From: Methylococcaceae bacterium
GTDB taxonomy: Bacteria > Pseudomonadota > Gammaproteobacteria > Methylococcales > Methylomonadaceae
Length of the DNA stretch: 20,496 bases
Assembly (NCBI GenBank): GCA_013140465.1
Contig: JABFST010000470.1
Span: 1 to 20,496 of the forward strand
Reading direction: 5' to 3'
The position numbers and the translations under genes are program-made. The notes under the pieces were generated by a model, which did not search any database, was not told the DNA's origin, and worked only from the letters and a program-made list of their open reading frames with translations. Below, piece after piece: positions 1 through 17,496 of this stretch; the stretch's first letter is position 1; each line of letters starts with the position of its first letter.

Positions 1-2
1 AC

Positions 3-12
3 GCCGCGCGGC
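3..12. promoter_or_regulatory. Palindrome upstream of sRNA unit 1, with -10 box at 47-52
   Basis: The perfect palindrome GCCGCGCGGC lies 34 nt upstream of a TATTCT -10-like box (47-52). A start near 59 would put the palindrome centre near -51, a usual place for an activator site. The -35 region is weak, which fits activator dependence (inference). Confidence 0.5.
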
Positions 13-58
13 AATCCGCCACATTTTAAAAACTAAGGTTTAGCGATATTCTATATGC

Positions 59-147
59 AACTCTTGAGATGCAACTTCCTTCCTCGGAATTCAGAGTTTT
101 ATATCCTTCTCTATAATGCGGCATGGTCTTCATGCCGCATTTTTTTT
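59..147 (+). ncRNA. Candidate sRNA, unit 1
   Basis: The predicted RNA runs from about 59 (7 nt after the -10 box) to the T run at 140-147, about 90 nt. It contains a short 5' hairpin around CTCTTGAG (61-68), a C/U-rich block CTTCCTTCCTCGG (75-87), a second pyrimidine block CCTTCTC, and a terminator hairpin. The pyrimidine blocks are complementary to purine-rich Shine-Dalgarno sequences, suggesting translational control by pairing at ribosome binding sites. The transcript ends, expression and targets are inferred. I do not recognise a named sRNA family. Confidence 0.6.
115..147 (+). terminator. Intrinsic terminator of sRNA unit 1
   Basis: An 11-bp perfect stem (AATGCGGCATG at 115-125 with CATGCCGCATT at 131-141), a 5-nt loop and eight T at 140-147. 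Confidence 0.9.
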
Positions 148-181
148 GCCTGTTGATTAGTGATCCATATTGCGACAATAC

Positions 182-191
182 GCCGCGCGGC
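182..191. promoter_or_regulatory. Palindrome upstream of sRNA unit 2, with -10 box at 226-231
   Basis: GCCGCGCGGC again, exactly 34 nt before TATTCT (226-231). It is preceded by a TGCGACAAT block, which is also present before units 3 and 4. Confidence 0.5.
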
Positions 192-237
192 AATCCGCCA
201 CATTTTAAAAACTAAGGTTTAGCGATATTCTATATGC

Positions 238-326
238 AACTCTTGAGATGCAACTTCCTTCCTCGGAATTCAGAGTTTTATATCCTTCTCTATAATGCGG
301 CATGGTTCTCATGCCGCATTTTTTTT
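238..326 (+). ncRNA. Candidate sRNA, unit 2
   Basis: Nearly identical to unit 1 throughout the transcribed part; the visible difference is the terminator loop (GTTCT instead of GTCTT). The C/U-rich block is at 254-266. Near identity with unit 1 points to a recent duplication or gene conversion. Confidence 0.6.
294..326 (+). terminator. Intrinsic terminator of sRNA unit 2
   Basis: The same 11-bp perfect stem as unit 1 (294-304 with 310-320), followed by eight T (319-326). Confidence 0.9.
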
Positions 327-360
327 GCCTAGTGGTTTGTGGTGGAAATTGCGACAATCC

Positions 361-370
361 GCCGCGCGGC
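361..370. promoter_or_regulatory. Palindrome upstream of sRNA unit 3, with -10 box at 405-410
   Basis: The palindrome and the 34-nt distance to TATTCT (405-410) are retained although the spacer between them has diverged. This argues that the spacing is under selection. Confidence 0.5.
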
Positions 371-416
371 AATACACCACATTTTCTTTATTGAGTATTG
401 GCTATATTCTATAGTT

Positions 417-507
417 CATCTCTTGAGATGTAGTCTTCCTTCCTCGGAAATGAGTGTATTATTTCCTTCTCTATAATGCGGCATAGTGTATATGGCGCAT
501 TTTTTTT
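417..507 (+). ncRNA. Candidate sRNA, unit 3
   Basis: A diverged sibling. Its 5' hairpin is perfect here (CATCTC, TT, GAGATG; 417-430), which supports selection on RNA structure. The C/U-rich block CTTCCTTCCTCGG is intact at 435-447, as is the downstream CCTTCTC block. Confidence 0.58.
475..507 (+). terminator. Intrinsic terminator of sRNA unit 3
   Basis: The stem 475-485 with 491-501 has one G-G mismatch. The outer stem bases and the eight-T run (500-507) are kept. Confidence 0.85.
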
Positions 508-541
508 GCTTGTCGATATGCGTGGCTAACTGCGACAATCC

Positions 542-551
542 GCCGCGCGGC
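542..551. promoter_or_regulatory. Palindrome upstream of sRNA unit 4, with -10 box at 586-591
   Basis: GCCGCGCGGC lies 34 nt before TATTCT (586-591), again with TGCGACAAT just upstream. Confidence 0.5.
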
Positions 552-597
552 AATACGTCACATTTCTTTTTGTTGCCCTAGTCGGTATTCTATACCC

Positions 598-685
598 GAC
601 TCTTGATATGCAATCTTCCTCCTCGGAAATCAGAGTTAAATTCCTTCTTTTATAATGCGGCATACCCTCATGCCGCATTTTTTTT
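598..685 (+). ncRNA. Candidate sRNA, unit 4
   Basis: The last and most diverged unit. Its pyrimidine block reads CTTCCTCCTCGG (615-626), which contains a CCTCC core complementary to GGAGG. The 5' hairpin is weakened (TTGATATG). The unit converges on the nitroreductase gene, whose stop is at 700. Confidence 0.55.
654..685. terminator. Intrinsic terminator of sRNA unit 4
   Basis: The 10-bp stem AATGCGGCAT (654-663) pairs with ATGCCGCATT (670-679), followed by eight T (678-685). It lies 15 nt past the end of the opposing nitroreductase gene and could also end that transcript. Confidence 0.85.
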
Positions 686-699
686 GCCCGTCTTTTTTA

Positions 700-2294: not shown

Positions 2295-2825
2295 TTAGGC
2301 AAAACGGTCGATCATTTTTTCGGCCTGTTCGGCAAATTGTTCTAGGTTGCCTTTGCTGACTTTATCGACGGGTATGACCAATGCGGTGCTTAAGTCTATA
2401 TAAATATAAACATAGCGTTTGCCGTATTCCACGCGCACCAAATCAGACCAAGCCATATTATGCTTACCGCTAGGTGATTTTTCTATTAAGTAATTAGGGT
2501 TGCTGGGATCTATTTTTAAGTTGTAAGTGCCAAACATCAAGCTTTTTTCTTTGGCGGAATAGCTGTTTATAAGTTTGTGTTGCCAGCGTGACATAATCGT
2601 TCTGGGCATAAATAAAGACCATAACACGCCTATCAGCGCAATATAGGCCGAGGTGTTTAAGTCTTTGTAATAAAAATAATAAAAAGCACCAATTAACAAA
2701 ACGACACTAGGCACTATCAGGCGGTTTTTGCGCATATCACTTTTATATTCTTCGGTTTTCATATACCGCGCCGCGTTAAAGTGGATCAGGTCTTGCTCGT
2801 CAAATTCATATTCTATTTCAAACAT
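2295..2825 (-). CDS. YcxB-like membrane protein
   Basis: 176 aa. The layout is that of the YcxB-like family: a short N-terminal part starting FEIEYEFDEQDL, two closely spaced membrane helices (about residues 36-53 and 58-71), then a soluble C-terminal domain with an IEKSPSGKHNMAWSDL segment that resembles a PH-like fold. The function of the family is not known. It begins 29 nt after the end of ndh on the same strand, so the two are probably co-transcribed with ndh first. Confidence 0.7.
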   Translation of the reverse strand: MFEIEYEFDEQDLIHFNAARYMKTEEYKSDMRKNRLIVPSVVLLIGAFYYFYYKDLNTSAYIALIGVLWSLFMPRTIMSRWQHKLINSYSAKEKSLMFGTYNLKIDPSNPNYLIEKSPSGKHNMAWSDLVRVEYGKRYVYIYIDLSTALVIPVDKVSKGNLEQFAEQAEKMIDRFA

Positions 2826-2854
2826 AATAGTAATCTTGTTGGAGTTTAAAAGGA

Positions 2855-4162
2855 TTAGTGCATTTTAATTTTTTTATAAACGCTGCGCCTAAACGCATTC
2901 GATAGCGTCAGCATGGCGGTCCTAAAATAACCGTGTATCGCCACTTGGTGCATTTTGTACAGCGACAGGTAAACCACTTTGGCAATAAAGCCGCCTATGC
3001 TGACCGTACCCATCAAATTGCCCATGAGGTTGCCGACCGTGGTGTATTTGCCTAAGGAGACTAAAGACCCGTAATCATAATAGACAAAAGGCACCAAAGC
3101 CCCGCCGCTCAGGCGGTTGCAGATCGATTTGCATAAGGTGGAGGCTTGTTGGTGCGCGGCTTGCGCCCTAGGCGGCACATTGCCTTTATGGTCAGGCCAT
3201 AGGCAGGCGGCGCAATCGCCCATAGCAAAAATGTCGGGGTCGCTGGTGGCTAAGGTGTTATCGACGATAAGTTGGTTGATGTGGTTGGTTGCCAAGCCAT
3301 CCAGCTGGCTTAGCCAATCGGGGGCTTTTATGCCAGCAGCCCATACTTTGAGTTCGGCCTCAATAAATTCGCCATCGTGCGTGGTGATGCCTTCTTTGCT
3401 GATTTCAGTGACGCGCCGCCCCATTTTAAGGTCTACGCCCAGATTGACCAGCTGTTGTTGCGTGGCAATTGCCAGTTTAATCGGCAAGGCGGGCAGCAAT
3501 TGGGTTGCCGCCTCGATAATGGTGAGCTTGACTGTGCTTTTTTCATTAAGGCCGTAGATAGCCAATACGTTGGTGACTTCGTGCAACTGCGCCGCCAGTT
3601 CCACACCTGTTGCGCCCGCGCCGACAATGGCGATGGACAGGGGTTTGACGTGGGCGCTGTCTTTGCCTATATAGCTTTTTAAATACGCCTCAAACAATTG
3701 CTTCTGAAACTTAAAGGCTTGCCGCGTGGTATCCAAAAACAAGCAGTGTTCGGCGACGCCTTTAATGTTAAAGGTGTTGCTGACGCTGCCTATGGACATG
3801 ACCAAGGTATCGTAACTGAAGGTGCGGCTAGGTATGAGTTCTTCGCCGCTATCACTGAGCGTAGGGCTAACGTAAATTTCCTTTTTTTGGCGGTTTAAGC
3901 CTTCCATTTTGCCTAGGCGAAAACGGAAATGGTTGCGGTGGCCTTGCGGCAGATATTCCACTTGTTCCGATTCGTCCAGCGTACCTGCCGCGACTTCGTG
4001 CAGCAGGGGTTTCCAGATATGGGTGGAGGTCGCATCAATAAGAGTGACTTCCGCCTTGCCCTTTTTACCTAATTTTTGCCCTAAGCGCGTGGCAAGTTCT
4101 AGGCCCGCTGCGCCGCCGCCGACAATCACTATTTTGTGTTGTTCATTATTATTAGCCATCAC
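2855..4162 (-). CDS. ndh: Type II NADH:quinone oxidoreductase (NDH-2)
   Basis: About 435 aa, the usual length. NDH-2 is a single-subunit FAD enzyme on the inner face of the membrane that passes electrons from NADH to quinone without pumping protons. The FAD-binding VGGGAAGLELA motif lies near residues 14-24, the NADH-binding VGAGATGVELA near 180-190, and the FAMGDCAAC segment that contacts FAD near 312. QAAHQQA follows, near the quinone site. The C-terminus is basic and amphipathic, as expected for membrane attachment. The start is either GTG (4162) or the ATG right after it (4159). A GAGGGG Shine-Dalgarno lies 8 nt from the GTG and 11 nt from the ATG, so the GTG has the better spacing. Confidence 0.93.
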   Translation of the reverse strand: MMANNNEQHKIVIVGGGAAGLELATRLGQKLGKKGKAEVTLIDATSTHIWKPLLHEVAAGTLDESEQVEYLPQGHRNHFRFRLGKMEGLNRQKKEIYVSPTLSDSGEELIPSRTFSYDTLVMSIGSVSNTFNIKGVAEHCLFLDTTRQAFKFQKQLFEAYLKSYIGKDSAHVKPLSIAIVGAGATGVELAAQLHEVTNVLAIYGLNEKSTVKLTIIEAATQLLPALPIKLAIATQQQLVNLGVDLKMGRRVTEISKEGITTHDGEFIEAELKVWAAGIKAPDWLSQLDGLATNHINQLIVDNTLATSDPDIFAMGDCAACLWPDHKGNVPPRAQAAHQQASTLCKSICNRLSGGALVPFVYYDYGSLVSLGKYTTVGNLMGNLMGTVSIGGFIAKVVYLSLYKMHQVAIHGYFRTAMLTLSNAFRRSVYKKIKMH

Positions 4163-6283: not shown

Positions 6284-7837
6284 ATGGACGCTTTGGTTGT
6301 ACTCATCCCCTTGTTGCCTTTTACCGCCGCTGTGGTGCTGGGCGTAAGCCAGTTGTTCGGCATCCTTAAAGGCGAAGCCAGTGAAAACACCACGGCCTTA
6401 TTGGCAATGTGGGCGCTATGTATGGCTAGCCTGTTGGCCTTAGTGTTGGCGGGGGCGGATGCACTAGGCTACAACCACGGCGTGCTAACGCTAGGCTCAT
6501 GGCTGGACAGCGAGGGTTTTGCCATTAGCGCCAACTTTACCACCACCGGACTACCCGTGCGCTTGGCGGCCTTGTTTGCGCTGTTGTTGGTGATCGTTAT
6601 GCGCTTTGCCATCAACTATTTGCACCGCGAAGCGGGTTTCCACCGTTTTTTCTTTCTGCTCAGCTTGTTTGCGGCGGGCATGTTGTTATTGGTATTGTCC
6701 GGCAATGCGGTCGGCAGTTTTTTTGGTTGGGAAATCGCCGGACTGTGTTCGTATGGCTTGATAGCCTATGCCTATAACCGCCCTGTTGCCGCCAGCAATG
6801 CCACGCGGGTGTTCATCACCAACCGGATCGGCGATACCGGATTTATCTTGGGCATCGCCTTATCCGCGATATTTGCCGATAGCCTCAATTGGCAACAGAT
6901 CAACACTGCCGACCTGACTACCGGGCAAGCCACAGGCATCGCCTTAAGCTTTAGCGTAGCCGCGTTTGCCAAATCGGCACAACTGCCGTTTACGCCGTGG
7001 TTGGCGCGTGCTATGGAGGGCCCTACGCCGTCCAGCGCGGTGTTTTATGGCGCGGTTATGGTTCATGCCGGGGTGTTTTTGGTGTGCGTGTTAGCCCCGG
7101 TGTTTGAACAAGCCCCGCTGGCTATGGCGGTTTTGGTTATCGTAGGCGGGTTGACGGCCTTGTATAGCTTTATTGTTGGCCTGACCCAAACCGATGTCAA
7201 AAGTGCCTTAAGTTTTGCCACTACCGGCCAATTGGGCTTGATGTTTTTGGCCTGTGGCTTAGGGTTTTGGCAATGGGCAAGTTGGCATGTGTGCGCCCAC
7301 GCCGTCGTTAGGGGCTATTTGATGTTAACCGCGCCGTCGTTAATGCACAATGTCTTGGACAACCCCATCAAACCTATCCACCCCAAAATTGCTAGCTTGC
7401 GTTGGGCGTATATCGCCTCTTTGCAACGCTTTTGGTTGGATCCGTTTACCGATTGGACCTTAATAAGGCCCATCCGGCGTTTGGCGCATGACTTAAGCTA
7501 TTTCGACGACCACGTTATTGATCCGTTCATGGGCGCGACGGCACCGATGTTGTCGCGCTTGTCATCGTATGCGCAATTGGAAGAGCATCTCGTTGGGGCG
7601 CAATTAAACGATGAAAACCTGTTTGCCAAAGGCACGGGTTTGGCGGGCAAGCTGACCGAATGGACGGCGGCGTTAATGCACTGGTTTGAAGACCGTTTTG
7701 TGCTGCGCGGCATCGGCAAAGATGCCCTGCATTTCGGGCGCAAACTAGGCCATGTCGCCAACCAGTTTGAGCAATTGATCTTAAGGCCACGGTATTTGGT
7801 CTTATTTGTGTTTATCACCCTATTAGTTGCATTTTGA
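6284..7837 (+). CDS. NuoL/complex I subunit 5-like antiporter protein, shortened
   Basis: 517 aa, against about 610 for standard NuoL. The N-terminal 355 residues follow the antiporter module: GWEIAGLCSYGLI with Glu150 (helix 5), FAKSAQLPFTPWL with Lys230 (helix 7), and HVCAHAVVRGYLMLTAPSLMH at about 335-355, where the usual central Lys is Arg343. After this point the last antiporter helices (with the distal Lys) are missing. The chain goes straight into FDPF/FDDHVIDPFMG-type sequence, a long polar helical region and one terminal membrane helix, which looks like the lateral piston arm and anchor of NuoL. It is the first gene of a three-gene operon. No NADH, FeS or quinone-module subunits are present. 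Confidence 0.8.
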   Translation: MDALVVLIPLLPFTAAVVLGVSQLFGILKGEASENTTALLAMWALCMASLLALVLAGADALGYNHGVLTLGSWLDSEGFAISANFTTTGLPVRLAALFALLLVIVMRFAINYLHREAGFHRFFFLLSLFAAGMLLLVLSGNAVGSFFGWEIAGLCSYGLIAYAYNRPVAASNATRVFITNRIGDTGFILGIALSAIFADSLNWQQINTADLTTGQATGIALSFSVAAFAKSAQLPFTPWLARAMEGPTPSSAVFYGAVMVHAGVFLVCVLAPVFEQAPLAMAVLVIVGGLTALYSFIVGLTQTDVKSALSFATTGQLGLMFLACGLGFWQWASWHVCAHAVVRGYLMLTAPSLMHNVLDNPIKPIHPKIASLRWAYIASLQRFWLDPFTDWTLIRPIRRLAHDLSYFDDHVIDPFMGATAPMLSRLSSYAQLEEHLVGAQLNDENLFAKGTGLAGKLTEWTAALMHWFEDRFVLRGIGKDALHFGRKLGHVANQFEQLILRPRYLVLFVFITLLVAF

Positions 7838-7844
7838 GGTACTG

Positions 7845-9380
7845 ATGGAAACGCCGCTCATGTTGTGGCCGGAAACTGCCGCTTTTCCGCTGCTCAGCAC
7901 CCTAACGCTGATCCCGCTAGTTACCCTCATAGCAATAGTGCGCTCACCCTCGGCACGCTTGGCACTGCGGTTTGGTTTTGTTGGCGCCGCCCTGAATGTT
8001 GCCCTAAGCATGTATTTGTTAATGGTGTTTGATGTCGGCAATGCCAGCATCCAATTAGTTGAGCAAGTGCAGCTAGGCTGGTTGAGTTATTGCGTAGGCG
8101 TGGATGGCGCAAATATTTTGTTCATCCCCTTAACCGCTGTGCTGACGTTTTTAGCCTTGATTTATACCTTAATCACCCGCCACGTCACCGACAAGCTGTT
8201 CATCGCCTGTTTGTTGGGTTACGAAACCGTGCTGATCGGCGCGTTTGCCGCCCTCAATCTCATGCAGTTTTGGTTGTGGAGCGTGATGGAATTAGTCCCG
8301 GTGGTATTACTGACCCATCACGCGGGTACGGGCCACCAACGGCGTTGGGTGGTCGCCTTGTTTATGCAATATTGGGGCAGTGCCTTGTTGATGACCTTAG
8401 CGGGTTTTTTGCTGTTGGCCTTTGGCTTAATTGATGCCGAACATCCGCTGACATTCGATTGGCTGACGCTAAAAGAAAATAACGCCTATTTGCATGATGA
8501 AGTGTTGATTTTTATCCTGCTGTTTTTTGGTTTTGCGATCAGGATGCCGCTGTTTCCGTTTCATGGCTGGCTACCGCTAATCGCCGAACAAGGCACGGTC
8601 GCCAGTGCCGCCATTTTTATGGTCGGCTTAAAACTGGGCATTTATGCGGTGATCCGCTTTATTTTGCCTTTAGTGCCTGGGGTGGCGGAACAATGGGCAG
8701 GGTTTGCCTTAACCCTCAGCCTTATCAGCATTTTTTACGGCGCGTTGTTGGCCTTAATGCAAATCAATATCCGCCGCTTGCTGGCGTTTGCCGTGGTCAG
8801 CCACACGGGCATGTTAGTGATAGGCTTGTTTTGTTTTAATGAGTTTGGCTTAGAAGGCAGCTTGTTGTTGTCCAGTGCCTACGGTTTGGCAACAGCGGGC
8901 ATGTTGTTCAGCGTCGGCTTGATTTACGAGCGCACCCGCACGGCCTTTATCCCGCGATTAGGTGGCTTGTTTGACAGCAATTTCGCCATAGCCTTGTTGT
9001 TTTTAATCTCCGCACTCAGCACCATGGTGATGCCCGGCACACCCGGTTACGATGCCGCGCATTTGCTCATAGAAGGCGTGATTGAAGAAGACGGCTGGTT
9101 AATGGCGATTGCCATCTTGTTAGGCAACGTACTGGCGGCGGCGTTTTTGTTGCGGGCTTTCCAACAAATCTTTATCGCCACCGCCAAGCGGGTACATCAG
9201 CCTTACGGCACGACCCACCATCCCGTGCGCAAAGAGCGCATCATCACTGGCGTGATTTGTGGTTTGCTGATCGTCACTGGTTTTTATTCTACGCCTTGGC
9301 TGGCGTTTATCGACCAAGAAGCCACTGCCATAAAAGCGCAATATCCTATCCACAGCACCCAGCATGGCAGCCCAAAATAA
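7845..9380 (+). CDS. NuoM/complex I subunit 4-like protein, divergent
   Basis: 511 aa from the ATG at 7845, chosen because GAGG sits 5 nt before it. An in-frame TTG at 7827 has no such signal and lies inside the upstream gene. About 14 membrane helices. Glu149 in WSVMELVPVVLL (helix 5) and Lys263 in GLKLGIYAVIRF are kept. The normally conserved helix-7 Lys is Arg233 (FAIRMPLFPFHGWLP), and the distal Glu that follows the PGTxG motif is Ala405 (PGTPGYDAAHLL). Proton transfer through this subunit may therefore differ from standard NuoM. It begins 7 nt after the NuoL-like gene. Confidence 0.85.
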   Translation: METPLMLWPETAAFPLLSTLTLIPLVTLIAIVRSPSARLALRFGFVGAALNVALSMYLLMVFDVGNASIQLVEQVQLGWLSYCVGVDGANILFIPLTAVLTFLALIYTLITRHVTDKLFIACLLGYETVLIGAFAALNLMQFWLWSVMELVPVVLLTHHAGTGHQRRWVVALFMQYWGSALLMTLAGFLLLAFGLIDAEHPLTFDWLTLKENNAYLHDEVLIFILLFFGFAIRMPLFPFHGWLPLIAEQGTVASAAIFMVGLKLGIYAVIRFILPLVPGVAEQWAGFALTLSLISIFYGALLALMQINIRRLLAFAVVSHTGMLVIGLFCFNEFGLEGSLLLSSAYGLATAGMLFSVGLIYERTRTAFIPRLGGLFDSNFAIALLFLISALSTMVMPGTPGYDAAHLLIEGVIEEDGWLMAIAILLGNVLAAAFLLRAFQQIFIATAKRVHQPYGTTHHPVRKERIITGVICGLLIVTGFYSTPWLAFIDQEATAIKAQYPIHSTQHGSPK

Positions 9381-9386
9381 GGCCCT

Positions 9387-10940
9387 ATGGACATGATTGA
9401 ATCTACCTTCCCCTTGCTTAGCTTAACCATAGTGCTACCCTTGTTAGGCGCATTAGCAACCGGCTTAGCCACCAATAACCGGCTGGCTAAATACATCGCC
9501 CTATGGGTTGCCGTAGCGGAATTGCTGCTAACTCTTAGCGCGTGGTGGTTGTTTAAGCCCGAAGACGGCAACCGTTTTCAGCTGGTTGAACAGCGTGCGT
9601 GGATACCTAGCCTTAATATGGAGTATTTAGTCGGTATTGATGGCATTTCGGTGTTGTTTTTGCCGATGACGGCGTTATTGACCGTACTTGCCATCGCCGC
9701 CTCATGGACCTCAGTGCAGCATTTGCACCGCTTGCATTTTGCCTTGTTGCTGGCCTTAGAAGGCATCACCATCGGGGTGTTTTGCGCCCTAGACACCATG
9801 CTGTTTTTTTTGTTTTGGGAGTTGACCTTACCGCCCATTTTCTTCCTGATCGGCTTATGGGGCATCGGCACGCTACGGCGCACGGCGGCAATGAAATATA
9901 CCCTGTTTATGCTGTTTGGCGGCGTGCCCTTGTTATTCGCATTTGTGTTGCTAGCCATCAACCACGCCACCGAAGTCAACGGCGCATTACCGCAAAACCT
10001 ATCGTTTAGCTTGCCCGTGCTATTGGCAACACCCGTATCCGAGCACTTGCAAACTGTCGTGTTTGTATTGTTGCTGTTAGGCTTTGCCGTTAAAGCCCCG
10101 CTGATTCCCTTTCATACCTGGCTACCCACCGCTACGATGGAAGGCCCTACGCAAATCACCGCATTGCTTATCGGCCTTAAGCTGGGCATCTACGGCATAG
10201 TACGCTTTACCTTGCCGTTAGCGCCGTCAGCGGCAGTCGGATTCAGCTGGATACTGGGCATTTTAGGCGCGGTCACGCTGGTATACGGCGGTTTGATTGC
10301 CCTACAACAAAGCAATCTCCGACGCTTATTGGCGTATGCCAGCATTAGCCATGTCGGCTTGGTGATTATCGGTATCGCATCATTAACCGTGCAAGGCATA
10401 CAAGGCGCGATTTTCCAATTATTCAACTTTAGTGTGATTGCCAGTTCGCTGATGCTGATTGCGGGGTTTATCCACCAACGCCTTGCCAGTACCGAAGCCG
10501 TGCATTTGGGTGGTTTGGCGAAGGTGATGCCGCGCTTAAGCACATTTTATTTTTTGTTCATGCTGGCAAGCATCGGCGTACCCGGTACCAACGGGTTTCC
10601 GGCAGAATTGTTGTTGATTTTCGGCGCCTTAAGCGCCCACCCAGGCTTAGGGTTGACGGCATTGGCAGGAGCGGTGCTGAGTGCCGCGTATATGCTCAGC
10701 TACACCCGCCGCGCGTTTTGGGGCCCCATCACCCAAACCGCCGTAAGCCAAAGCCAAGACCTGCGCCCGCGCGAACTCGCGTTGCTGTGCATACCCGCCT
10801 TGCTGGTGTTATGGTTTGGGTTTTTTCCAAATACTGCGCTAAGTGTGAATCAAGTGGCGGCAGAGGCGTGGTTGTCGCGCTTATTGGAACCGCCACAAAT
10901 GCCAAATAATGATGTGGTTGGGTTGTGGCAAGGCCATTAG
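9387..10940 (+). CDS. NuoM/complex I subunit 4-like protein, canonical
   Basis: 517 aa with about 14 membrane helices. All key residues of a NuoM-type proton channel are present: Glu145 in FWELTLPPIFFLIGLWG, Lys236 in GFAVKAPLIPFHTWLP, Lys265 in GLKLGIYG, and Glu407 in PGTNGFPAELLLI. LRRLLAYASISHVG and the C-terminal LSYTRRAFWGP segment are also typical. It starts 6 nt after the previous gene, with AAGG 4 nt before the ATG, so the three genes form one transcription unit. Together they resemble the membrane antiporter part of a complex I with two NuoM subunits, but without its other parts. Confidence 0.88.
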   Translation: MDMIESTFPLLSLTIVLPLLGALATGLATNNRLAKYIALWVAVAELLLTLSAWWLFKPEDGNRFQLVEQRAWIPSLNMEYLVGIDGISVLFLPMTALLTVLAIAASWTSVQHLHRLHFALLLALEGITIGVFCALDTMLFFLFWELTLPPIFFLIGLWGIGTLRRTAAMKYTLFMLFGGVPLLFAFVLLAINHATEVNGALPQNLSFSLPVLLATPVSEHLQTVVFVLLLLGFAVKAPLIPFHTWLPTATMEGPTQITALLIGLKLGIYGIVRFTLPLAPSAAVGFSWILGILGAVTLVYGGLIALQQSNLRRLLAYASISHVGLVIIGIASLTVQGIQGAIFQLFNFSVIASSLMLIAGFIHQRLASTEAVHLGGLAKVMPRLSTFYFLFMLASIGVPGTNGFPAELLLIFGALSAHPGLGLTALAGAVLSAAYMLSYTRRAFWGPITQTAVSQSQDLRPRELALLCIPALLVLWFGFFPNTALSVNQVAAEAWLSRLLEPPQMPNNDVVGLWQGH

Positions 10941-15428: not shown

Positions 15429-16665
15429 TTAGGCCGCCTTTATCCGGCAACGGTAATATGCGTTTAGGCATTGCACGATGGCTTTGCCCATTGCCTTCGC
15501 CAAATTGACAGGGACGGCGTTGCCTATTTGTGCGTATTGTGCGGTCAGTGGCCCGACAAACGTCCAGTCATCGGGAAAGGTTTGGATACGCGCATATTCC
15601 CTGACCGTAAACGGGCGGGTTTCTTTAGGATGGCAGCGTTCGGTCTGTTTTTGTGCAGGGGCGCAGGTTAAGGTCAGGCAAGGTTCATCCCACGCAATTC
15701 TTCTTGCCATTCCCGTTTTGCCGCCACTTAAGTGAAACGACCCTTTCATATACGATTTTTGCAGTGCTAGGGGCAAGTCGCGCCAATACCCACCTGGCGG
15801 TATCAATTCCATAATGGCACGTTTGCTGTCGGGATAAAGTTGCCCTAGGGAGGGCGGGACATCGGTGTCAAACAGCGGGCCTTTTTTGAGTGCGTCTTTC
15901 AGCACATACACTGTGGATTCGGGTGTGGGCCAATTAAACTTTAAGCCCATCCCCCTTTTAAGCCCACGATAAACAGCCGTTCGCGTTTTTGGGGCACGCG
16001 GAAATGAATGGCTTTCAACACCTGTGGCGGCATCACGTCATAGCCTAATTCATCTAAAATAGACACCATGCCCGCGAGCGTTTTGCCCTGTTCATGCTGG
16101 AGCAAGCCGCGCACATTTTCGCCGACACACAGCAAGGGCTGGGTTTCTTTTACGGCCCGGGCAAATTCAAAAAACAATGTGCCGCGTGCATCTTCAAAGC
16201 CTAGGCGTTTGCCCGCATAAGAAAAGGCTTGGCAAGGAAAGCCGCCTGTCAATACATCGACACGGCCTTGGTAAGGCGTAAAATCGATAGCCGCGACATC
16301 GCCTTCAATCACTTGCCAGTGCGGGCGGTTTGTCCTTAAGGTCGCACAGGCATTTTTATTGATTTCAGAAAGCAGGATGGTGTCCAAGCCCGCTTGCTCC
16401 AGCCCCAAGGCCAAGCCGCCCGCACCTGCAAACAATTCGATTGATGTTAAGTTTCTGATAGGTTTTTCGTTGGCTGAATGGGAGTAGGGGTAAACATAAA
16501 GCCTATTTTCTCAAATATAGATAAGTTAGCAGCACGGTAGACCCTATAATTGTTCATTGGATGGCGTTCTGCGACCAATTTACCGGACTTATCCCAACGA
16601 CGAAGGGTTTCTTTGGTAACGCCTAACATGTCGGCGACTTCTGATAAGGTGTAAATGGCTTTCAT
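15429..16665 (-). pseudogene. C5-cytosine DNA methyltransferase with N-terminal HTH, split by two frameshifts
   Basis: Three consecutive frames make one protein of 412 aa if one base is added at each of two runs: A5 (T5 on plus, 16463-16467) and G5 (C5 on plus, 15951-15955). Part 1 (16665-16447) is a MerR/excisionase-like helix-turn-helix (YTLSEVADMLGVTKETLRRW). Part 2 has motif I (ELFAGAGGLALGLEQAG), motif IV with the catalytic Cys (GGFPCQAFS), motif VI (ENVRG) and motif VIII (PQKRERLFIVG). Part 3 has the target recognition region, motif IX (REYARIQTFPDDW) and motif X (QIGNAVPVNLAKAMG). All motifs are present, so the breaks are recent or are sequencing errors. AGGG lies 7 nt before the ATG. 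The cognate endonuclease is divergent at 16768. Confidence 0.85.
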
Positions 16666-16767: not shown

Positions 16768-17496
16768 ATGAACAAAACACAACAATTAGAAATATTGACT
16801 CAGGTAAAGAAGTGGTTTCGTGATGTCATTTTGCCAAATCACATTAAAAACACTAAAAAATTAGCAAGTGCTGATGTTTTCGATATTAATCCATTCTTGG
16901 TGCCTTATCTTGCTGGATTTCTAACAGGAGAGCTGACTCCTGAGTCCATCGCAAAGGCTTTGTTGTATCCTAGAATCCTGGGTACATCAATAACTACGTC
17001 GTTTGGACAAAATATGCAGAAGTTTATTGCTGATGTCTTAAGAAACAGTTTTGGTTCTATGGTGCATGGAATCGATATTGAGTTTATTGATGCTGTTGAT
17101 GGCCGTCGAAAATATTGTCAAGTGAAGTTAGGGCCTAATACCATTAACAAAGATGATGTTTTGACCATACACAACCATTTTAAGGCTGCTAGAAACTTAG
17201 GCAAAACTAACCATGTTCCTATTCAGCACGGTGATTTGGTAATTGGTGTGCTTTATGGCGAGGCAGGACAGGAGAGTAGCCACTATCAAAAGCTCAGGGA
17301 CGAACACGATTATCCCTTGTATGTAGGCAATGAGTTTTGGTTACACTTGACTGGTGATCCAGATTTTTACCAGTTGTTAAGGCTAGCTATTGTAGAGGTT
17401 GCTGTTGAAGCAAAAGGAGTTGAAATTATTGAGGAGGTGTTGAAGGAACTTGCAGCAACTGATACGGTAAAAATGATGGCAGGACATCAAATATAG
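16768..17496 (+). CDS. Type II restriction endonuclease, PmeII/EcoO109I-like
   Basis: 242 aa. NHIKNTKKL, INPFLVPYLAGFLTG, and LGTSITTSFGQNMQKFIADVL are recognisable conserved blocks of the PmeII/EcoO109I group of type II endonucleases. The likely active site is GIDIEFID (about 101-108) followed by CQVKLGPNTINKDD (about 117-130), a PD-(D/E)xK variant with Gln118-x-Lys120. The frame is open throughout. No Shine-Dalgarno is visible before the ATG, which would keep translation low. It is divergent from the C5 methyltransferase, 102 bp away. The recognition site cannot be read from the sequence; EcoO109I itself cuts RGGNCCY. Confidence 0.8.
   Translation: MNKTQQLEILTQVKKWFRDVILPNHIKNTKKLASADVFDINPFLVPYLAGFLTGELTPESIAKALLYPRILGTSITTSFGQNMQKFIADVLRNSFGSMVHGIDIEFIDAVDGRRKYCQVKLGPNTINKDDVLTIHNHFKAARNLGKTNHVPIQHGDLVIGVLYGEAGQESSHYQKLRDEHDYPLYVGNEFWLHLTGDPDFYQLLRLAIVEVAVEAKGVEIIEEVLKELAATDTVKMMAGHQI

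Follow-up and report, generated by a model that had tools for sequence, protein, structure and literature searches.

The CiaRH csRNAs of streptococci are several short RNAs, each of which has a response-regulator site, a -10 box spaced from that site and a terminator, as described in the accessible text of PMC3091779. In Rhodobacter sphaeroides, the network of PrrA, the homologue of RegA, includes the small RNA PcrZ, and the sites bound by RegA/PrrA have been proposed to be an inverted GCG repeat (both from the accessible part of PMC4263372). For RegB/RegA of Methylomonas sp. DH-1, the motif GGASNPI and the residue Asp59 have been named, and RegA ChIP enriches the feo promoter. The same 2026 study reports that tonB and siderophore-receptor genes are affected without RegA binding. 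In its accessible text, RegA is said to act on tonB and tbdr indirectly, through intermediaries yet to be found (PMC13274454).

The window analysed here is the whole stretch of DNA under study, an entire contig of 20,496 bases from a methanotroph of the order Methylococcales. As a biological sink for methane, the methanotrophs of this order are important. In the open-access literature searched, as far as its text was accessible, we met no study of a native regulatory small RNA in a type I methanotroph. The accessible parts of these sources describe a synthetic sRNA used in Methylomonas DH-1 (PMC7720504), one unnamed sRNA gene predicted by Rfam in Methylocaldum (PMC5399248) and alphaproteobacterial sRNAs in the type II methanotroph Methylosinus sporium (PMC12403871).

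Positions 1–686 of the window form a head-to-tail array of four units of 179–181 nt, and these units are almost certainly small RNA genes. What is new here is the operator upstream of each unit, which is doubled in units 2–4 and was absent from the first-pass annotation of this DNA. Through this operator the array is linked to a set of small RNAs across the genome, and a RegA-driven bank of such RNAs would point to a regulon whose output shifted towards RNAs inside one order.

The four-unit array and its family

Each unit has the same layout: an operator, a -10 box, a pyrimidine-rich RNA of ~87 nt and an intrinsic terminator (Table 1). With unit 2 as the reference, the identity is 94% for unit 1 (E = 6.6e-76), 81% for unit 3 (E = 5.9e-32) and 78% for unit 4 (E = 7.9e-24). 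The spacers between the units vary and the operator, -10 box, core and terminator are kept. The unit alignment bears out the first-pass annotation, which had described four tandem units with a TATTCT box, a pyrimidine core, a terminator and diverged spacers. That annotation also held that the array might extend past the window. The first base of the contig is base 1 of unit 1, so the assembly breaks inside the array, which is cut, and four copies are a minimum.

In 82 related units, whose alignment is explained below, the hexamer that aligns with TATTCT is a conserved TAnnAT. As predictions, the -10 call and the starts that had been proposed near 59, 238, 417 and 598 are therefore sound. The same alignment led to the rejection of a -10 box placed 3' of TATTCT, and its columns contain no clear conserved -35 box. 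When RNAs 1–4 were folded and compared to 200 shuffles each, the z values were -4.2, -5.2, -3.0 and -5.7, respectively, with 1, 0, 2 and 0 of the 200 shuffles folding equally well. The third RNA has the lowest model score among the four, and a stop codon directly follows its ATG.

Table 1. Predicted features of the small RNA array in the window
Feature	Position	Strand	Remarks
Unit 1	1–179	+	
RegA-type operator, unit 1	8–25	+	1 mismatch to GCGRCAATNTGYCACATT; upstream copy lost at contig start
-10 box TATTCT, unit 1	47–52	+	aligns with TAnnAT conserved in 82 units
sRNA 1	59–147	+	predicted start 59–60; terminator hairpin 115–141, then T run
sRNA 1, inner parts	stem 61–67/91–96; CU hairpin 76–89; CU linker 101–112	+	
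Unit 2	180–358	+	
Double RegA-type operator, unit 2	172–204	+	match 187–204, 1 mismatch; GCGAC-N5-GCCGC at 172–186 and GCGGC-N5-GCCAC at 187–201, then ATT
-10 box TATTCT, unit 2	226–231	+	aligns with TAnnAT conserved in 82 units
sRNA 2	238–326	+	layout as sRNA 1; terminator hairpin 294–320
Unit 3	359–538	+	
Double RegA-type operator, unit 3	351–383	+	match 366–383, 2 mismatches
-10 box TATTCT, unit 3	405–410	+	aligns with TAnnAT conserved in 82 units
sRNA 3	417–507	+	terminator hairpin 475–501
Unit 4	539–~690	+	
Double RegA-type operator, unit 4	532–564	+	match 547–564, 1 mismatch
-10 box TATTCT, unit 4	586–591	+	aligns with TAnnAT conserved in 82 units
sRNA 4	598–685	+	terminator hairpin 654–679, then T run

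Relatives of the unit were sought in several ways. BLAST found it in 20 of 24 genomes of the same genus at E≤1e-10 and in 21 at E≤0.01, with the 21st (G010) contributing only a piece of 19 nt where a contig ends. Genome contigs were also scanned with a pattern taken from the RNA core, in which the operator was not used and own-genome records may have been left out. All 49 stretches found carry Methylococcales titles, and they include Methylobacter tundripaludum SV96 (three loci) and M. psychrophilus. Scan and BLAST matches together gave the alignment of 82 units of this RNA type, called class A, in which the core is partly invariant because the scan required it. A covariance model was built from these aligned units, and in the filtered searches, in which weak matches are lost, it detected the family in 144 of 201 family genomes and 26 of 29 genera at E≤0.01 (own genome counted), and in 103 of 251 genomes of the order at E≤0.001, all 103 being within the window's own family. 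Tandem copies occur elsewhere, with three in G002, three in G022 and four in G044.

Two-sided changes were seen in 10 of 16 pairs, in both helices, compared to a mean of 4.7 in shuffles, and none of 500 shuffles was as high. The sample comprised 52 matches from many genera, including a few class B siblings (see below), and its alignment was fitted to the model. The first-pass annotation had named random substitutions across relatives as an outcome that would speak against small RNA genes, and the outcome favours the small RNA reading. Its proposal of sibling sRNA genes, each with its own promoter and terminator, is upheld by family-wide recurrence, covariation, the lack of a kept reading frame and fixed promoter geometry; the search of related genomes that it suggested found the unit, as given above. 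Its failure to match the unit to a named family also agrees with the covariance-model search of Rfam, which gave nothing at the gathering threshold for the window or for 16 loci of relatives, so that a known Rfam family was rejected. A phage or plasmid element was likewise rejected, as there was no match in the phage or plasmid collection.

The remainder of the window contains several further features. A C5-cytosine methyltransferase at 15429–16435 on the minus strand appears by eye to be split into overlapping ORFs (15941–16435 and 15429–15950). Beside it is a small MerR-like ORF (16447–16665, by eye), and a 242-aa ORF in the same neighbourhood (16768–17496) may be a restriction enzyme, also by eye. 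A 41-nt inverted repeat, 98% complementary, lies at 1356–1471 and 1960–2060, where it adjoins copies of GGCTGAGCGGAGTCGAAGC and flanks a STAS-domain gene; it looks like a small repeat element. On the plus strand at 6284–10940 are three successive ORFs of 517 aa each, which by eye resemble NuoL/M/N-type proton-pumping subunits.

The operator and its probable link to RegB/RegA

The operator has the form GCGRC-N5-GYCAC-ATT, which is an inverted GCG repeat. GCGRCAATNTGYCACATT is found within 2 mismatches upstream of 81 of the 82 class A units. Its spacing from the sequence CTCTTGA is -53 in 80 of the 82 and -54 in one, which is unit 3 of the window. The sole exception is a class A RNA in Candidatus Methylobacter titanis (L095 1559–1641, minus strand), which has no operator and provides a natural test of the promoter. 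The operator was also present in all 23 covariance-model matches from other genera that we chose for inspection. Taking the start near AACUC, the centre of the operator is near -43, which we take to be the position of a class II activator. An OmpR-type direct-repeat operator was rejected after the inverted-repeat operator had been placed in the 82 units.

The inverted GCG repeat agrees with the description of RegA sites in the accessible part of PMC4263372. In the window's own genome, a perfect operator on contig C136 is located ~115 bp before a divergent kinase gene, which is followed by a response-regulator gene. The best NCBIfam match of the kinase is RegB/PrrB, with 202 bits under a cut-off of 350, and that of the regulator is RegA/PrrA, with 192 bits under a cut-off of 250. 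The kinase has GGASNPI, and the regulator has Asp59 and the domains Response_reg and HTH_8. RegB was scored in this genome only. A regA-type gene (NF033791) is present in 16 of 16 genomes with 183–199 bits, in every case below the equivalog cut-off of 250 bits. Ten of the 16 have an operator within 3 kb of the regA-type gene, and these ten are not independent because much of the proximity is shared synteny. No operator was found within 3 kb of regA in G018, G005, G007, G015, G063 and G222. Between msrA and regB of G018 there is no operator within 4 mismatches, and G015 has the regulator and no operator at ≤1 mismatch.

The feo promoters count against a link to RegA: although feo is a RegA ChIP target in DH-1, the 14 feo loci for which upstream sequence was available, all from strains other than DH-1, have no operator within 2 mismatches, and the closest site has 3 mismatches (L271). 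The small RNA genes could therefore be real and the operator could belong to another transcription factor, with the link to regBA reflecting shared ancestry or hitch-hiking. In support of this, feo is the sole ChIP-supported RegA target known to us in the family. Furthermore, ChIP-seq of Rhodobacter PrrA gave no strong consensus in the accessible part of PMC4263372, unlike the tight motif seen here. No binding motif was found in the accessible parts of PMC8191878 and PMC12727197. What stands against another factor is the distribution of the operator outside the order, where it occurs at ≤1 mismatch in 25 of 141 genomes, with one control match across all 143 searched. A RegA-type regulator (E≤1e-30) is present in 21 of the 25 operator-positive genomes versus 3 of 25 hand-picked, operator-negative ones (Fisher p = 5e-7), the other 4 operator-positive genomes having no RegA-type match at this threshold. 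In addition, 8 of the 21 have an operator no more than 3 kb from the regulator gene, and in six of those eight the distance is 1.3–1.5 kb, or about one regB gene length. An unrelated factor is thus considered improbable, and control of these small RNA genes by RegA is considered likely.

Operator-linked small RNAs and their putative action

The operator-site set consists of all sites with ≤1 mismatch in the order. This amounts to 104 sites from 30 genomes searched (G015 has none), with sites in tandem arrays and in related genomes each counted singly. A terminator is found 35–190 nt downstream in 79 of the 104, compared to 3 of 104 in the mirror direction, and in the remaining 25 the script found no terminator. 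A motif complementary to the Shine-Dalgarno (SD) sequence, such as TCCTT or CCTCC, precedes the terminator in 74 of the 79, whereas shuffled stretches gave a mean of 29 and at most 40, and the reverse-complement motif was seen in 3.

The RNAs were divided into classes, which are defined by neighbourhood and partly named by eye. Class A is the type of the window array and adjoins ksgA in G018. Class B precedes an ORF that contains HEAGHAAAIYL and that lies beside yggS and pilT. Class C is located between msrA and regBA, or by msrA alone (L111, L113). Class D is divergent from the soluble methane monooxygenase gene mmoX (Phenol_Hydrox domain) and precedes an ORF of no known family. It was located at L104 2753–2890 (plus strand) and at L108 about 2780–2895 (minus strand); the ORF that follows encodes 225 aa with no Pfam or NCBIfam match. 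At two further loci, L107 3067–3502 (plus strand) and L039 near 2955–2973 (minus strand), the operator is directly before a small exported-protein ORF (MKKN...) and there is no sRNA terminator.

In other families of the order, a terminator is present at 8 of 11 operator sites, with two in tandem in G029. Outside the order, terminators follow just 2 of 33 operator sites (mirror direction, 0), and ORFs resembling exported proteins are often found 3' of the operator by eye. The operator would thus seem to predate its use for RNAs. In three genomes outside the order (L288, L289, L306), what follows the operator is a small exported-protein ORF containing YVGLCC(G/A)KCGGNMP, possibly an older target of the regulator.

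The units, their conservation and structure, the operator, the association with regA and the sRNA-rich operator set were computed. The layout of the units matches that of the CiaR csRNAs, and activation, SD pairing, help from Hfq and a dosage effect are therefore proposed. Here, each unit would be the gene for a trans-acting small RNA of ~87 nt that has been kept across the methanotroph family. Under redox stress, phosphorylated RegA of the RegB/RegA redox system would bind to the operator near -43 and recruit sigma-70 polymerase, the promoter itself having a good -10 box, and the result would be activation instead of repression. Three parts are predicted in the folded RNA: a 5' stem that carries a C/U-rich hairpin, a linker containing CCUUCU, and the terminator. 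For units 1, 2 and 4 the predicted fold leaves the CCUUCU unpaired. The C/U stretches may then pair with the SD regions of target mRNAs and block translation. Hfq, whose gene was found in 6 of 6 genomes, would probably assist in this pairing. By analogy to the csRNAs, anti-SD repression is probably the main action. Tandem copies would raise the RNA dose, and dosage or target diversity, as the first-pass annotation had supposed, is a plausible reason for the copies. As one operator would also drive further small RNAs of unlike sequence, much of the output of RegA in the order would be post-transcriptional.

The complement of the linker was found before an ATG at 21 places in 8 genomes versus 6 in the control, an excess that could be explained by an ordinary ribosome-binding site. 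Only four of the 21 open a frame of ≥100 codons, and there is no recurrent gene among them; we therefore name no target. A conserved mRNA target via the linker complement was rejected, since nothing was conserved. It could then be that an RNA-binding protein or another small RNA is the partner for which the RNAs act as sponges or mimics, in which case the copies would titrate this partner and there would be no mRNA pairing. Tandem copies and strongly conserved loops are also compatible with titration, as is a target search that yielded no mRNA. However, the SD-complementary stretch is the feature common to the classes. Also, each class A RNA has a single GGA, which is within a stem (by eye), and is therefore not CsrA/RsmA-like. 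Titration is accordingly unlikely and anti-SD pairing is preferred. That the units encode a short peptide (MQTSSSEFRVLYPS...) or are leaders regulating a downstream gene can be set aside almost entirely: in 79 of 82 units the conserved GAGATGCAA includes an ATG, but this ATG is missing in 3 and followed by a stop at the second codon in 2, the conserved CAGAG is spread over all three frames from the ATG (60, 10 and 9 of 79), so that a coding or leader-peptide constraint was rejected as the main one, and the next gene in the window is convergent to the array.

Comparison with described systems

Of the RNA families in Rfam, the best sub-threshold match is suhB/MmgR (RF00519), with 30.6 bits for unit 1 and 30.3 bits for unit 2, under the threshold of 41. 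Units 3 and 4 are unmatched, and the relatives L079 and L088 have no match at E≤1. PcrZ is a single RNA of a phototroph, and it is likened to the RNAs described here by description and not by sequence.

Methylomonas sp. DH-1 is a type I methanotroph with a two-component system of the same kind, and GGASNPI and Asp59 are common to both systems. In the main text of the DH-1 paper, as far as accessible, the terms sRNA, small RNA, motif and non-coding are all absent (PMC13274454). A small RNA bank driven by RegA is a candidate for how RegA affects genes to which it does not bind, and it is testable with existing mutants and RNA-seq. The loci of this bank belong to several unlike families and are found next to ksgA, msrA-regBA, pilT and mmoX. 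On balance, we lean slightly towards the view that an operator which seldom precedes a terminated RNA elsewhere in the Gammaproteobacteria was turned over to small RNAs in the Methylococcales, and that RegB/RegA works largely via an anti-SD bank that would provide the missing intermediaries.

The closest likeness is to the csRNAs, with which the array has in common a response-regulator-type site, a spaced -10 box, a terminator and SD-complementary stretches, as far as these are described in the accessible part of PMC3091779. Features of a csRNA-type regulon found here are the fixed spacing of site and -10 box (80 of 82), the terminator (79 of 104) and the SD-complementary stretch (74 of 79). 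According to the accessible text of that source, CiaR sites have the form of a direct repeat, TTTAAG-N5-TTTAAG, whereas the site here is an inverted GCG repeat. The csRNAs also belong to another phylum, and here several classes of unlike sequence are under one operator, in addition to tandem arrays. With these differences, it is likely that the array belongs to a bank of anti-SD small RNAs which is under RegA control and operates in the manner of the CiaR-csRNA regulon.
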